A stretch of 47,193 bases of DNA, taken from positions 1 through 47,193 of the forward strand of contig JAFGVD010000048.1 in the NCBI GenBank assembly GCA_016938135.1, in the 5' to 3' direction. Of the stretch, positions 31 through 30,254 are shown piece after piece; the stretch's first letter is position 1; each line of letters opens with the position of its first letter. The position numbers and the translations under genes are program-made. The notes under the pieces were generated by a model. It worked only from the letters and a program-made list of their open reading frames with translations, was not told where the DNA came from and made no database searches. This DNA is from Coriobacteriia bacterium (GTDB lineage Bacteria; Actinomycetota; Coriobacteriia; Anaerosomatales; Anaerosomataceae).

Positions 31-744
31 GTGTGGCGAGACGGCTTCGTCGAGCTGTTCTTCCCCGCGCGCTGTGCCGCCTGTGATGCGCCCGGCGGAG
101 TGCTGTGCTCCTCATGCGAAGCGCTCCTGCCATTGATCCTACCCGCGCGGGCCTGTGCGCGCTGCGGAGCTCCCATGCGCGAGGCGTGTGTTGAATGCGT
201 GGGTCGGGAGTTCTCCTTCTCGGCGTGTCGCGTCGTGGGTGTGCTGCGTTCGCCGCTATCAGACGTCGTCACCGTCTACAAAGACGCAGGGGAGCGCCGG
301 CTGGTGACAGTGATCGGCGCGCTCATGGCCGCTCGCATCGATGACTGGGCGACGTGGGCCGACGCAGTGGTCCCGGTCCCTGTGCGCCCCGCTTCGCGCT
401 CCACAAGAGGGTTCGACCACATGCGCCTCGTGGCGGCCGATGTAGCCGCTAGAACGAACTTGCCGCTCGTGCGCTTGCTTCAGGCACACGGCACTGGCGA
501 CCAGCGCCGCCTTGGCCGAGAAGAGCGCTTCGCCAATGCCTTAGGGCGATACGCGGTGCGTGCAGGGATCCGGGTTCCCCGGCGTATCCTGTTGCTGGAT
601 GACGTCTTCACCACGGGCGCCACGTTCGAGGCCTGCTCGGCGGCTCTGATGGCTGCCGGCGCGCACGAGGTCAGGGCGGTCGCGCTTGCCCGCGCGGCCG
701 ATGGGCCGGACGCTGCAGGATGTACCCCGGGGTCTGCGACCTGA
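31..744 (+). CDS. comF: ComF family phosphoribosyltransferase-like protein
   Basis: This is a 237-residue cytoplasmic protein of the ComF/GntX type. The N-terminal part holds four CxxC-type pairs (CAAC near residue 15, CSSC near 26, CARC near 42, CVEC near 53), which in this family form a zinc-binding region. The C-terminal part carries the type I phosphoribosyltransferase signature, seen here as LLLDDVFTTGAT near residue 188, preceded by the usual VPVPV strand and the RGFDH segment. In competent bacteria ComFC supports uptake or processing of transforming DNA; its exact reaction is not settled. The GTG start fits family length (the FFPARCAAC segment comes early, as expected), but the poly-G run leaves no readable ribosome binding site and an upstream start cannot be excluded. 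In many Gram-positive genomes comF precedes hpf; here an amino acid transport locus lies between them. Confidence 0.9.
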   Translation: MWRDGFVELFFPARCAACDAPGGVLCSSCEALLPLILPARACARCGAPMREACVECVGREFSFSACRVVGVLRSPLSDVVTVYKDAGERRLVTVIGALMAARIDDWATWADAVVPVPVRPASRSTRGFDHMRLVAADVAARTNLPLVRLLQAHGTGDQRRLGREERFANALGRYAVRAGIRVPRRILLLDDVFTTGATFEACSAALMAAGAHEVRAVALARAADGPDAAGCTPGSAT

Positions 745-1030
745 TACACTCTCACTTGCTTCCATCCGGGTCTGTGGTTGCGGGCGTTTCGGCGCCTCAG
801 TCCATGGTAGACGCGGCCAAAGGGACCCACGTAAGCCGGCGGTTCGCCGTCGCGCGAGCATGGCGCGTCTTAGGGGTAAGTCGTACCGTCCGGTCCAACC
901 ATCCCGGTTGGCGGGCGAGAGGACCGGTAGTGAGATAGCATCAAGCGGAAGTCCCGGTACGCGAGTGTGGGGCCAAAGACCAGGTCAGCCGGATGGAAGC
1001 ACTTATGTTCTTCAGCGGGAGGAGTTGGCT
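742..1030 (+). promoter_or_regulatory. Promoter and structured 5' leader of the first binding-protein gene
   Basis: An extended -10 box (TGA followed by TACACT, 742-750) overlaps the comF stop codon. The following 280 nt contain no convincing gene but show nested perfect helices: 882-888 pairs with 955-961 (7 bp), 890-896 with 921-927 (7 bp), and 897-900 with 906-909 (4 bp). The layout resembles a cis-regulatory RNA ahead of an amino acid transport gene, but I do not recognise a known riboswitch class and see no T-box consensus. The leader ends in a good ribosome binding site (GGGAGGAG, near 1017-1024). Confidence 0.4.
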
Positions 1031-1906
1031 GTGCGTTACAGACGACTTATGATCCTCGGTGCCGTAGTTGCGGTACTTGCGGTTTCCGGGTGTGCAAAAG
1101 AGGCCGATACCCCTGTGCTCGAGCCCTCGGTGGCCCCACCGGTCATCGGTGAGGCGGGCGTGCTTCGGGCTGGCGTCGATTTGGGCTACCCGCCCTTTGC
1201 CGGCAAAGACGGCGGCGAGGAAGCCGGACTGGACGTCGATATCGCCGCCGCGCTCGCTGAGCGCCTCGGCCTGACCCTTGAGCTCGTCGATATCGGTTCG
1301 GATGGTGCTGCAGAAGCACTGGAGTCTGGAGATATCGATATCGCGCTTGGCGCACTGCCTATCACTGATGCGGTATTGGCGGACGTAGCCTTCGCGGGCT
1401 CGTATCTTGTGGACGGGCCGGCCTTCTTTACGGTCGCCGCTTCGTCGAGCGTCGACACCACAGCAAGCACAGAGGCTTCGGAGAGCGCTGATGCGTCCGT
1501 GAGTGTGCCCACCATGGACGTGACGACGATCTCTGGCCTTCGTGTGGGCGCCCAGGAGGGGAGCGTGGCCTACTGGATGGTCGAGAGTGAGTATGGAGAA
1601 GGCTTTGCCACGGCCTACGACACCCTCACGGATGCTTTTGATGCTCTGGTCGCGGGAGACATCGACGCGGTCGCATGCGACGCGGCGGTAGGGGCCTATA
1701 TCGGCCGAGACTACACTGACGTCGTCTTCGCGGGTCAGTACGGCTCCGGCGTACCCGTCGGAGTGGCGATCGCCAAGGACGCGACAGAGCTGGAGATGGT
1801 CGTCCGAGAGACTCTCGACGCCGTTGTCGCCGAGGGAGTCTTGGACACCATCAGGTCGAAGTGGCTGGGTGCGCTTCCCATGCTTGATGCCGCGTCAGCG
1901 GAGTGA
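1031..1906 (+). CDS. Extracellular solute-binding lipoprotein, family 3 (canonical order)
   Basis: This 291-residue lipoprotein is the binding component of a polar amino acid ABC transporter type. The signal peptide ends in the lipobox AVSGC (Cys21). Residues about 43-136 match the first half of an SBP_bac_3 domain (VLRAGVDLGYPPF, DVDIAAALAERLG) and residues 165-285 the second half (ISGLRVGAQEGS, DAFDALVAGDIDAV, ending SKWLG). Two oddities are seen. A Ser/Thr/Ala/Glu-rich stretch (about 137-163) is inserted at the hinge between the halves. The usual Arg of the TITxER motif, which grips the ligand carboxylate in this family, is missing (ITDAVL). The ligand may therefore not be an ordinary amino acid. 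The GTG start is chosen because it has a GGGAGGAG site and begins the signal peptide; a longer in-frame extension upstream has no such support. Confidence 0.85.
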   Translation: MRYRRLMILGAVVAVLAVSGCAKEADTPVLEPSVAPPVIGEAGVLRAGVDLGYPPFAGKDGGEEAGLDVDIAAALAERLGLTLELVDIGSDGAAEALESGDIDIALGALPITDAVLADVAFAGSYLVDGPAFFTVAASSSVDTTASTEASESADASVSVPTMDVTTISGLRVGAQEGSVAYWMVESEYGEGFATAYDTLTDAFDALVAGDIDAVACDAAVGAYIGRDYTDVVFAGQYGSGVPVGVAIAKDATELEMVVRETLDAVVAEGVLDTIRSKWLGALPMLDAASAE

Positions 1907-2107: not shown

Positions 2108-2977
2108 ATGTCCAAGAACAGCAAGTGGACCGCGCTATTGCTGGCGTTCGCACTCGCGTTCACCGCTTTCGCGCTCGTTGGGTGCGGCAGCGACGACGAT
2201 ACTACGGATGATGGCGGTACCACTGAGGCTACAGGGATCACCAGCGTTGACGATCTTGGTGAAGGCGACAAGGTCGGCGTGCAGTCTGGTACTACCGGTG
2301 AAGAGTGGGCCAAGACCAACCTCGAGCCTAACGGTGTCGAGGTCATTCCCTACGATGACATCCTCCTTGCGTTCTCGGCCCTTCAGGCCGGCGATATCGC
2401 AGGTGTCATCAACGACCTCCCGATCAGCCAGGACGTCGTGAAGGACGAGACCCGCGGTCTTGAGATCGTTCAGGAGATTCAGACTGACGAGACCTACGGC
2501 TTCGCGTTCAGCAAGGACAACACCGACCTGCGTGACGCAGTCAACTGGGCGCTGGCAGAGGTCATCGCTGACGGCACCTATGACGCGGTGTACACGACCT
2601 GGTTCGGTGCGGCCCCCATGTCGATGCCTCCGGTAGAGGCCACGGTTGCCGAGATGCCCACCAACATCACGACCCTTTCCGCTGGCAAGATCATCGTCGG
2701 TTCCGATACCGCGTTCCCGCCGTTCGAGAACGTCGAGGGTGGCGAGACGGTAGGCTTTGACGTCGATCTCATGGAAGCGATCGGCGAGAAGCTCGGGTTG
2801 ACGGTCGAGTTCAAGACGTACAAGTTCGACGCTCTGATCACAGGTGTTCAGGCTGGCAGCGAGTTCGACATGGTTGCATCGGCTATGACCATCACCGATG
2901 AGCGCAAGGAGTCCATCGACTTCTCGAATCCGTACATCAACTCGAACCAGTCGCTCGCAGTCAAGAAGATGCAGTAG
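2108..2977 (+). CDS. Polar amino acid binding lipoprotein with circularly permuted SBP domain
   Basis: This 289-residue lipoprotein has a signal peptide ending in ALVGC (Cys26), then an acidic linker. The family 3 binding domain is present in reversed order. Residues 44-167 match what is normally the second half (SVDDLGEGDKVGV, SGTTGEEWA, SALQAGDIAGV, ADGTYDAVYTTWFG). After a linker (168-190) residues 191-288 match the normal first half (GKIIVGSDTAFPPFE, GFDVDLMEAIGEKLG, FDALITGVQAG, MTITDERKESIDFSNPY). The Arg that binds the ligand alpha-carboxylate in this family is kept (TITDER). The ATG is chosen for its AGAGGAGG site at about 2095-2102; an in-frame GTG 33 nt upstream is less well supported. 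It lies upstream of the permease and ATPase and is likely their binding partner. The reversed order is seen directly; retained function is inferred. Confidence 0.9.
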   Translation: MSKNSKWTALLLAFALAFTAFALVGCGSDDDTTDDGGTTEATGITSVDDLGEGDKVGVQSGTTGEEWAKTNLEPNGVEVIPYDDILLAFSALQAGDIAGVINDLPISQDVVKDETRGLEIVQEIQTDETYGFAFSKDNTDLRDAVNWALAEVIADGTYDAVYTTWFGAAPMSMPPVEATVAEMPTNITTLSAGKIIVGSDTAFPPFENVEGGETVGFDVDLMEAIGEKLGLTVEFKTYKFDALITGVQAGSEFDMVASAMTITDERKESIDFSNPYINSNQSLAVKKMQ

Positions 2978-3002
2978 TCTGCTCGAGTAGCGCTCTTGTG
3001 TG

Positions 3003-3036
3003 CCTCAGGGCCGACGGTGTACCGTCGGCCCTGAGG
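3003..3036 (+). terminator. Attenuator-like hairpin between binding protein and permease
   Basis: Arms 3003-3018 and 3021-3036 are perfect 16-bp reverse complements around a 2-base spacer. It sits between the binding-protein stop and the permease ribosome binding site. This is the usual place for a partial terminator or 3' stabiliser that makes binding protein in excess over permease. No T-run follows, so partial read-through is plausible. Confidence 0.65.
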
Positions 3037-3062
3037 TGTGTCAGGTTAGAGGAGGAGACCGC

Positions 3063-4340
3063 GTGAACCCGAAGCTCCGAAGGATCTTGTGGTACGCAGT
3101 AAACGCTGTCGTATGGGTGACCCTTGCAATCCTGCTGCTGACCATGGTCGGTCCGGAGCGGTTCGTGTACCAGACGCCCGCGAAGCGTGGACAGACCGGG
3201 ATGGTGGACAAGACCTACATCATCTCGCCCACCAAGGATGCTGTTACCATCGGCACTCGCGCCAATGTGCTGATACCCCAGGCCGAACTCGATGTGGATT
3301 TTGGCGCTACTCTGGATCGTCAGCCGGCCGGTGCCAACGCCGCTGACTCCACATGGCAGCTGACCGCTGAGGAGACCAGCCCCACGCCTGTCCTGCTCAA
3401 CGGCGAGTTGCTCACCGGCAATCCGGTTGTTGAAGCTGGCGACATCATCACCGTAGGCGGCGTGGAGGTCACGTTCGACGGCAGTCGTCGGGGAATACTG
3501 GGCGCCATCGACTGGTGGGAGTCCGGCAAGGTATCACACTTGTTCGCATCGCCCGCAGTCATGAGCGAGGCGTTTCCCATCGTCTTGAAGGCGTTCCCGG
3601 TCTCGCTCTACACGGTCATCATCTCGTTCTTGCTCGCCATACCTGGTGGTCTAGCGCTCGCTTTCATGAAGATGGCCAAGACCCGCTGGGCGCGATGGCC
3701 GGCCACGATCTATGTTGATGTCGTCCGAGGCACGCCGATATTCCTGCAGATACTTCTCGTGTTCTTCGGCTTGCCGCTGATGCCACCTTGGCAGCTGCTC
3801 GTCTCGGCGTTCCCGCAACTCAACGAGTCGGGGCTGTTCGGCGTGGTCAATTCGCTCTATCTGCGTGCGTTTGTTGTCCTGAGCTTCAACTCGGCGGCGT
3901 ACATGGCAGAGATCTTCCGTGCTGGCATCCAGTCCATTAACAAGGGTCAGATGGAAGCCGCACGCTCTCTTGGAATGACTACTCCGCAGGCCATGACCTA
4001 CGTCATCATCCCGCAGACGATCCGTCGAATCCTGCCAACGATGATGTCTGAGTTCATCCTGCTGTTCAAAGACACGTCTCTGTTCTCGGCCGTCGGATTG
4101 ACTGAGATCGTCATGCGCTCTCGCGAGGTCGCATCCTCAACGCTTAATGTGTCGCCATATTTGCTTGCAGCCGGGTTCTATCTTGTGCTCACGATCCCGT
4201 TGGGCCGGTTTGTGCAGCACTTCGAGAACCGCCTTGCCAAGGCAGAGGGCGGTGGCGGCGCTGTGGAGTCTGATAAGGCAGACGATGCGCTGGTAGACCA
4301 GACCACCGGTATTCCCATTCCTACAAGGGACGAGAGGTGA
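3063..4340 (+). CDS. Amino acid ABC transporter permease with FHA-like N-terminal insert
   Basis: This 425-residue inner-membrane permease is of the HisM/GlnP type. The C-terminal part (about 165-390) is a normal permease domain with [26 protein letters not shown] and the ATPase-contacting EAA loop [14 protein letters not shown] (298-311). The N-terminus is unusual. After TM1 (about 9-28) comes a soluble stretch of about 130 residues. Residues 50-139 read like a forkhead-associated fold ([12 protein letters not shown], then [11 protein letters not shown], then [18 protein letters not shown]). The family's conserved Arg after IG and the Ser/His pair are not present, so phosphothreonine binding is unlikely. 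Basic residues before TM1 suggest this domain faces outside. The C-tail is hydrophilic. The GTG start has GAGGAGG at about 3050-3056; the longer frame begins inside the hairpin and is rejected. It is followed directly by the ATPase gene. Confidence 0.9.
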
Positions 4341-4345
4341 TTGCG

Positions 4346-5092
4346 ATGACCCGACAGCAAAGCGATCCTATCGTCCGTATCGTCGGCCTTCAGAAGGCTT
4401 TCGGCGATCTTGAGGTCCTCAAGGGCGTCGACATGGATGTCCAGAAAGGTGAGGTCGTCGTCATACTCGGTCCGTCAGGATCGGGCAAGTCCACCTTGCT
4501 CCGGTGCGTGAACCGTCTGGAAGCGCCCACAGGCGGCGAGGTGTGGCTTGAGGACATACAGGTGAACGACCCGCACACAAATATCAACAAGGTGCGCGAG
4601 CGCATCGGCATGGTCTTCCAGTCCTTCAACCTGTTTCCGCATCTGACCGCCAAGGGCAACGTCATGCTGGCCCAGCGCAAAGTACTGGGTCGATCCAAGG
4701 ATGAGGCCGAGAAGACCGCTATCGAACAGCTTGAGGCTGTCGGTCTTGGAGACCGTGTCGACTACTTCCCGGCACAGCTTTCTGGAGGCCAGCAGCAGCG
4801 AGTCGCCATCGCACGAGCGCTTGCGATGGATCCGCACGTGATGTTGTTTGATGAAGTGACCTCAGCGCTCGATCCCGAGCTTGTCCGGGGCGTCCTCGAC
4901 GTCATGAAGGAGCTCGCTCGCAAGGGCATGACTATGCTTGTCGTCACGCACGAGATGGGCTTCGCGCGCGATGTCGCCAGTCGCGCGGTCTTCATGGACG
5001 GCGGCGTCATAGTAGAAGAAGGCACACCCTCCGAGGTATTCGACAATCCGCAAAACGAGCGGACAAAGGACTTCCTCGGTCACATAAAGTAG
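4346..5092 (+). CDS. Polar amino acid ABC transporter ATP-binding protein (GlnQ/HisP type)
   Basis: This 248-residue cytoplasmic ATPase energises the permease upstream. Walker A is GPSGSGKST, the signature is LSGGQQQR, Walker B is [14 protein letters not shown], and the H-loop is VVTHEMGFA. Length and motifs are those of the GlnQ/HisP group, which acts as a homodimer. The ATG at 4346 is preferred because GAGAGGTGA lies just upstream. A GTG at 4337 would give a 4-base overlap with the permease stop codon and add three residues. The gene is co-directional and translationally close to the permease, so the transporter is probably one operon from the second binding protein onward. Confidence 0.95.
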
Positions 5093-5181: not shown

Positions 5182-5724
5182 ATGAAGATGATCGTGAAGG
5201 GTCGTCACATGGAGATTACACCAGCCATTCGCGAATACGCCGAGGAGAAGATCGGTAGGACCGCGAAGATACTCGACCACATGATCATGAGTGCAGAAGT
5301 CGAGTTGCAGGTTGAAAAGAACCCGTCTATTCAGAACGGTCACGTAGCCGAGGTCACGGTCTACACCAAGGGTCATGTGATTCGAGCTCGTGAGGCGTCT
5401 TCGGACATGTACGCAGCCATCGATCTAGTTTCCGAGAAGCTCGAGCGTCAGGTTCGCAAGTACAAGACCAAGATCATCGATCGCCACACGAAGGCCGCTC
5501 CCATTGCTGAGATCACTGCCGCACTCAGTGAAGAGCCCGAGCGTGAGCCGGAGATCGTGAAGACCAAGGTTCTTGAGGTCAAGCCGATGAGCGCCGAAGA
5601 GGCGATCTTGCAGCTGGAACTGCTCGGCCACGACTTCTTTGTGTTCTCTTCCGCGGAGACCGAGGAAATCAACGTTTTGTATCGTCGCACTGACGGCGAC
5701 TACGGGCTCATCGAGCCTCGATAG
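5182..5724 (+). CDS. hpf: Ribosome hibernation promoting factor, long form
   Basis: This 180-residue protein is the long type of HPF (RaiA/YfiA family). The N-terminal domain (about 1-100) begins with KMIVKGRHMEITPAIREYAEEKI, typical of the fold that sits in the decoding region of idle ribosomes. The C-terminal domain (about 122-180), with VKPMSAEEAILQLELLGHDFFVF and YRRTDGDYGLIEP, is the dimerisation domain that joins two 70S particles into 100S dimers. The ATG has a very strong ribosome binding site (AAAGGAGGT, 5167-5175). It lies alone between two hairpins, so it is probably its own unit. In related genomes secA usually follows directly; here about 8 kb of other genes intervene. Confidence 0.95.
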   Translation: MKMIVKGRHMEITPAIREYAEEKIGRTAKILDHMIMSAEVELQVEKNPSIQNGHVAEVTVYTKGHVIRAREASSDMYAAIDLVSEKLERQVRKYKTKIIDRHTKAAPIAEITAALSEEPEREPEIVKTKVLEVKPMSAEEAILQLELLGHDFFVFSSAETEEINVLYRRTDGDYGLIEPR

Positions 5725-29905: not shown

Positions 29906-30254
29906 GGGGGCGACTGGATTCGACACGATAGGTCTGAGGGAAGAAGCAGGCCGAGGTCTCCTCGCCTCGTAAAACAGGGGTACCGACGCTTAAACGTCGA
30001 CAATAACTACGCTCTCGCTGCTTAATTAAGTAGCGACGTCACCCGGTGAGAGTCCCCGTCACCGGCCCTGACGTCATTCAGGGGACTACCGGGACCGCCG
30101 ATGATGGTGTGCGGTCAGGGAAAGCGATCCATCTAGGGACGGGTATGCCGGTCACGGCGTGTCACCCTTACCGAAACCCAAGCCGTGACTGAGCCTGGAG
30201 ATGCTTCCTAGGGGTCTATCGTGGACCGGAGTTCGATTCTCCGCGCCTCCACCA
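29906..30254 (+). ncRNA. ssrA: Transfer-messenger RNA (tmRNA)
   Basis: This RNA of about 349 nt rescues stalled ribosomes together with SmpB. The 5' end GGGGGCGACTGGATTCGAC is the conserved tmRNA start and pairs with CGCCTCC near the 3' end to form the acceptor stem. The T-arm is GTGGACCGGAGTTCGATTCTCC near 30222, and the CCA end is encoded. The tag frame ends at TAA 30023-30025 and reads VDNNYALAA if GTC at 29996 is the resume codon; the final YALAA is the usual degradation tag. The exact resume codon is inferred. A terminator follows. Confidence 0.97.

Follow-up and report, generated by a model that had tools for sequence, protein, structure and literature searches.

The SBP2 locus

The window, by which we mean the whole 47,193-nucleotide stretch of DNA analyzed, contains a gene block whose layout is fixed within the order to which this genome belongs: comF, raiA RNA (identified in the window), SBP1, SBP2, permease, ATPase and hpf (Table 1). 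The SBP2 open reading frame begins with an ATG at 2108, closely preceded by the Shine-Dalgarno sequence AGAGGAGG, and ends with a TAG at 2975-2977. Its lipobox, found by inspection, occupies residues 23-26 and marks the product as a lipoprotein. With its adjoining amino-acid-type permease (TIGR01726, HEQRo_perm_3TM, above cut-off) and ATPase, SBP2 belongs to a PAAT-type ABC importer; among substrate-specific models, none scored above its own cut-off.

A second very stable stem-loop (about 1945-1977, z -6.1) lies between SBP1 and SBP2. This stem-loop and the one 3' of SBP2 suggest expression of SBP2 independently of SBP1 and at a higher level than that of the permease. Binding proteins are usually expressed above their permease.

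The raiA RNA is set apart from the hpf/raiA-type gene by the entire SBP1-SBP2-permease-ATPase block. Elsewhere in the window, a tmRNA (RF00023) was found at 29906-30254 on the forward strand, and positions 1-28 hold a run of about 20 G at the contig start that is probably a contig-end artefact.

Table 1. Features of the SBP2 locus, in window coordinates
Feature	Position	Strand	Description	Basis
comF-like gene	31..744	+	conserved left flank	conserved position; name from resemblance
raiA RNA	761-997	+	between comF and SBP1	RF03072, 162.7 bits
SBP1	1031..1906	+	second SBP_bac_3 lipoprotein, ordinary order, kept at the locus	
SBP2	2108..2977	+	circularly permuted class-F (SBP_bac_3) solute-binding lipoprotein, 289 aa	sequence, PDB, Pfam, orthologues, model
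SBP2 signal peptide	2108..2185	+	lipoprotein type, lipobox LVGC, Cys26	sequence; G25 and C26 unchanged across 23 orthologues
SBP2 spacer	2186..2233	+	residues 27-42, low-complexity, Asp/Thr/Gly-rich, from lipid anchor to lobe 2; modelled as disordered	
SBP2 canonical C-terminal half, in first place	2234..2608	+	residues 43-167: lobe 2, hinge strand 2 (TYGFAF), lobe-1 closing helices	superposition on GlnPQ SBD1
SBP2 new junction	2609..2686	+	residues 168-193: canonical C-terminal tail (AAPMSMP) and post-lipobox-type linker (PVEATVAEMPTNITTLSAG)	comparison with canonical G042 and G032
SBP2 canonical N-terminal half, in second place	2687..2968	+	residues 194-287: remainder of lobe 1; the chain closes with hinge strand 1 (SLAVKK)	superposition on TmArgBP
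Intercistronic stem-loop	3002..3037	+	in the SBP2-permease gap; stem of 16 bp	-39.4 kcal/mol for 2990-3050, z -6.9
ABC permease	3063..4340	+	polar amino-acid type; BPD_transp_1 at residues 192-392; extra N-terminal TM and domain of about 100 aa	
ABC ATPase	4346..5092	+	GlnQ-like	
hpf	5182..5724	+	ribosome hibernation factor (hpf/raiA-type gene), conserved right flank	

Reversed order of the SBP2 halves and predicted fold

SBP2 is a member of the SBP_bac_3 family by score (132 bits; cut-off 26.4), and its two matching stretches jointly span the Pfam profile, with profile positions 1-92 falling at residues 195-287. A genome-level search placed profile positions 97-131 at nucleotides 2435-2608 and positions 1-94 at nucleotides 2690-2974, which is the reverse of the family order. 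When phmmer was run against PDB chains, residues 44-167 matched amino-acid-binding proteins of the ordinary kind in their C-terminal half and residues 193-287 in their N-terminal half; the sole chain with a continuous match was the tandem GlnP SBD1-SBD2, across its internal C1-N2 junction. The same order was recovered with a profile of 23 orthologues. Since the collinear arrangement of N-half (194-287) before C-half (43-167) is absent, SBP2 was filed as a permuted SBP_bac_3 variant. Both segments are homologous to one protein, and the new termini fall at one matching site: the canonical ..SLAVAADSTIATVDDL.. is cut after SLAV, and the old C-terminal tail is joined to the old N-terminal linker. 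A tandem or two-domain protein was ruled out, as SBP2 has only 289 aa and one copy of each half.

AlphaFold2, run with the 23 orthologues, gave a model with mean pLDDT 86.5 and pTM 0.79, in which low confidence is confined to residues 1-41 (signal peptide and spacer). Because Foldseek and VIA both follow the order of the sequence when aligning, the whole model matches canonical class-F proteins weakly. The halves superpose well when taken singly and in sequence order: residues 43-169 on GlnPQ SBD1 125-251 (C-half; 125 residues, rmsd 1.6 Å, Z 12.0) and residues 186-279 on TmArgBP 21-114 (N-half; 93 residues, rmsd 1.7 Å, Z 11.4). The predicted structure is thus a two-lobed Type II fold. Taken whole and in sequence order, the model also aligns with OpuAC (207 residues, rmsd 4.8 Å, Z 11.2).

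As modelled, the chain would form lobe 2 first, cross into lobe 1 through hinge strand 2, follow the fused linker to the original N-terminus and then finish lobe 1, and hinge strand 1, as the terminal strand, would complete the lobe-2 sheet. In this topology each lobe becomes nearly contiguous. The three-dimensional fold, the cleft and the ligand residues would be kept, and what would change is the position of the lipid anchor, on lobe 2 rather than lobe 1, and the end of the chain, at the hinge.

The original prediction, made from the letters of the window, had described a circular permutation cut at the hinge strand, with near-contiguous lobes and a relocated lipid anchor. The permutation is borne out by Pfam, phmmer and the orthologue profile; the cut lies directly after hinge strand 1 in sequence and model, and the rearranged lobes and anchor hold at both levels. 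The predicted 23-residue linker was close, the homologous cores being separated by a new linker of about 26 residues (168-193). Structure prediction had been proposed as a check that could overturn the claim, and it returned a confident two-lobed fold.

Permuted and ordinary SBP2 in related genomes

The proposed search of relatives likewise found the same order of halves. Among 99 related genomes, 22 others of the same order carry a permuted SBP2 orthologue as a full-length single match (60-86% identity), spanning seven families (f1, f5, f7, f8, f10, f14 and f16) and including a single-contig genome of 1.84 Mb (G003). All 23 permuted orthologues align with one common cut, starting at I-x-S-V-D-D-L and ending at S-L-A-V-K-K. 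A half order common to 22 other genomes, with intact synteny, is neither chance nor the local frame or assembly error that had been named as a refuting outcome.

At this locus 23 genomes of the order have a permuted SBP2 and about 34 others an ordinary one; the nearest ordinary orthologues (f2, f7 and f13) are 60-81% identical per half. Both forms occupy the same locus, which rules out paralogy with unpermuted copies at other sites. Only G025 holds both forms (L017 and L059), on two short contigs; with 7% contamination, this assembly suggests a mixed bin.

Class-wide and phylum-wide profile searches of Actinomycetota, with follow-ups, revealed further permuted copies in G382, G378 and G758 (all f25), in G091 (f20), and in G619 (f30, which belongs to another class of the phylum). 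In these three families permuted and ordinary SBP2 share the same kind of operon neighbors, and each permuted copy is nested among unpermuted orthologues. G382, G091 and G619 are each represented by a single draft genome of 68-82% completeness. The cut lies just past hinge strand 1 in the window clade, G382 and G619, and about 30 residues further on, past the first lobe-2 helix, in G378, G758 and G091, which belong to two unrelated families. A model of G378, with this second cut point, is likewise confident (pLDDT 87.0, pTM 0.76). At loci L130, L135, L136, L143, L144 and L145 (f17, f20 and f23), two neighboring SBP2-type genes lie 5' of the permease.

Origin of the permuted gene

Our preferred reading, held with considerable confidence, is that SBP2 works as the lipid-anchored binding protein for polar amino acids in an SBP2-permease-ATPase ABC importer, and that its gene is a circular permutant of an ordinary class-F gene which would have arisen by tandem duplication and trimming. 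The mature part of the gene would have been duplicated in frame, bringing the complete C-terminus of the first copy against the post-lipobox linker of the second, and the first N-half and second C-half would then have been lost. This would have taken place in situ, at least four times at this type of locus in Actinomycetota.

In all events, the inner junction consists of a complete canonical C-terminal tail followed by a post-lipobox linker, without a second signal peptide. In the window WFGAAPMSMP is joined to PVEATVAEMPTNITTLSAGK, compared with WFGAEPLSIP-stop and ...PATEAPAFTTLTEGK in G042, and in G091 ARWIDADNPPTLP is joined to NVEGSTDASV..., compared with ARWIDADNPPVLP-stop and ...DVEGAVTRE... 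in G095. Relatives in f17, f20, f21 and f23 have tandem SBP2 genes, and G160 (L111) encodes an in-frame N-C-N-C-permease fusion of 1016 aa with two SBP_bac_3 domains in tandem and an amino-acid permease; substrates for the duplication route thus exist in the class. Both cut points occur within f25. If the f25 copies stem from one event, their ancestor must have had a segment of roughly 30 residues at both ends, one copy of which was lost in each line, and such an ancestor is a prediction of permutation by duplication (PMC3320104). The route by tandem duplication and trimming of the outer halves, also proposed from the window alone, is therefore supported by junction anatomy, tandem genes, the N-C-N-C fusion and the cut-point variants, although no C-N-C or N-C-N-C form was found at the locus itself and about 110 loci examined showed no redundant intermediate.

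Gene fission followed by re-fusion in reverse order is the standard alternative model (PMC3320104) and would likewise yield a C-half followed by an N-half. We regard it as an unlikely route for SBP2, since the same loci contain no separate half-genes, the junction preserves a full tail and linker with no second signal peptide, and relatives possess both tandem genes and an in-frame double-SBP fusion.

Evidence for a putative working binding protein

Seven positions of SBP2 (D200, F240, T261, R266, T62, T63 and D103) are invariant in 23 of 23 permuted orthologues. We take these to match the amino-acid contacts D10, F50, T70, R75, T118, G119 and D157 of GlnBP. The expectation that key ligand residues would be intact has accordingly been upheld. 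From the polar amino-acid type of the neighboring permease and ATPase, we infer that the ligand is a polar amino acid. Pairwise dN/dS ratios among permuted copies are 0.05-0.12 across both halves and resemble those of unpermuted copies, indicating that SBP2 is under purifying selection.

SBP2 could instead be the remnant of a tandem SBD1-SBD2 protein, that is, a non-functional or differently acting fusion in which the half-domains do not pack together, and its best PDB sequence match does run across the inner junction of such a tandem. We consider this very improbable: neither of the two complementary halves is truncated, purifying selection acts on both, the ligand residues of both lobes are invariant, a single confident two-lobed model was obtained, and the gene is the sole SBP2 at its locus, adjoining an intact permease and ATPase.

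Independent origins of the permutation

In the SBP2 tree, G619 is sister to the ordinary G427 (99/89), G378 and G758 group with the ordinary G301 and G326 (99/90), and G091 falls among ordinary f20 copies in a group of five (100/100), whose signal peptide (MKKRLLMLS...) it retains. The starred branches of this tree force five changes of label. AU tests, whose groups were chosen once a first tree had been seen but whose label, gene order, does not depend on the alignment, rejected single clades of the window clade with G619 (3e-65), with G091 (7e-39) and with G382 (2e-56), and of G378/G758 with G091 (2e-62). A clade of the three f25 copies was not rejected (p 0.30). Given these rejections, the trees indicate that the permutation arose independently at least four times in Actinomycetota, with two cut points.

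A single ancient permutation, spread by horizontal transfer and reversal, has in its favor the movement of the SBP2-permease cassette from genome to genome at this locus within the order; in addition, the f25 copies, with their two cut points, may share one event. This is a highly improbable account of all permuted copies: the AU tests reject every joint clade tested except that of the three f25 copies, and each copy outside the order groups with unpermuted orthologues of its own family (G619 and G427 are 76% and 66% identical per half).

An assembly or frame artefact, with two genes joined or a tandem array collapsed, may be practically dismissed and for the window clade is already refuted, because, although few draft genomes (three of them singletons) document the events beyond the order, 23 genomes agree exactly in order and cut, one a single contig, with both flanks intact, the low dN/dS extends over both halves, the shifted f25 cut is found in two genera (G378 and G758), and collapse of a direct repeat cannot attach a signal peptide to a C-half.

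Comparison with known binding proteins

Class-F (Type II) proteins of PF00497, such as GlnH, HisJ, ArtJ and AncQR, share with SBP2 the sequence family, the two-lobed fold and the ligand-site residues, and are also lipoproteins encoded beside a polar amino-acid permease and a GlnQ-like ATPase; they differ in that SBP2 has reversed halves, an anchor on lobe 2 and a chain end at the hinge.

Natural permutation of binding proteins is already known in both fold types. TpMglB-2 (Tp0684) of Treponema pallidum, of the proposed Type Ic/Cluster Bc, is a naturally permuted, lipid-anchored binding protein with a crystal structure and demonstrated glucose binding and closure, for which tethering was suggested as a possible reason for the permutation (PMC4990184). 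Its behavior indicates that permutation is compatible with function. Unlike SBP2, it has a Type I sugar-binding fold, a different cut and a need for a fourth hinge crossing, and with its permuted half just 13% identical to EcMglB it has no close unpermuted orthologue (PMC4990184). SBP2 itself, as a Type II SBP_bac_3 protein, falls outside Type Ic/Cluster Bc. Within the Type II fold, OpuAC and ProX, along with molybdate-binding proteins and CysB, are related by circular permutation according to CPSARST (PMC2395249), between remote homologues of <24% identity, whereas the two SBP2 forms are orthologues of 60-81% identity per half at one locus. SBP2 shares with these proteins circular permutation within the Type II fold, and its model aligns with OpuAC from end to end. 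GlnPQ SBD1-SBD2 (6h30), a working tandem protein, shows the same C1-N2 order at its inner junction and models the duplicated ancestor, but both its domains are complete, keep the ordinary order and are attached to the permease. DNA methyltransferases and saposin/swaposin have the same proposed route of permutation by duplication (PMC3320104); SBP2 differs from them in offering several recent independent cases with unpermuted alleles in place.

What is new is the permutation of SBP_bac_3 among close orthologues, at one locus, repeatedly and with two cut points. The literature searched, which took in few subscription journals, gave no account of close orthologues permuted repeatedly, and on permuted SBP_bac_3 it yielded nothing relevant beyond TpMglB-2 and CPSARST. 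A tblastn search of plasmids with SBP2 hit 1209 records, always below 60% identity, and the best 12 rows of these matches were all two-piece.

Circular permutation is mostly inferred between remote homologues, with the route lost. Here both orders occur in close orthologues at one locus, through independent events with a conserved junction, which makes duplication and trimming directly testable. The permuted and unpermuted copies are natural pairs for relating chain order and anchor position to folding, hinge closure and transporter docking, and their cut points are evolution-tested sites for permuted biosensors. Family profiles applied without a check of order hide such permutants under ordinary names, and this one gene position illustrates the re-threading of proteins in evolution.

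Probable exchange of the SBP2-permease cassette

The permuted copies of the order form one clade in the SBP2 tree (95/94). In the permease tree the permuted label needs just two changes, and canonical f2, f7 and f13 copies lie inside the permuted group with modest support, so that a reversal or a further permutation event may have occurred inside the order. On the comF and hpf trees the label is scattered, requiring 11 changes, no fewer than shuffled labels do. The four flank and permease trees were made with a quick method and are less certain. This difference between flank and cassette trees suggests that species have traded the SBP2-permease cassette at one fixed site in the chromosome, permuted and ordinary forms being alternative alleles (L050-L089, whole order).

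We offer, as a tentative and rather doubtful extension, that the SBP2 position is a hot spot of circular permutation with four to five independent re-threadings, that the anchor always moves to lobe 2 because tethering there alters docking to the permease, and that permuted and unpermuted cassettes are competing alleles swapped between species.

The permease itself varies at its N-terminus. In the window the extension (3063-3560, forward strand; about 160 aa) comprises one TM and about 100 aa that look FHA-like (VLLNGELL...) and precedes the ordinary core, and copies without it, in open reading frames of 285-300 aa, occur in f2, f7, f13, f14 and genome G060 of f5.
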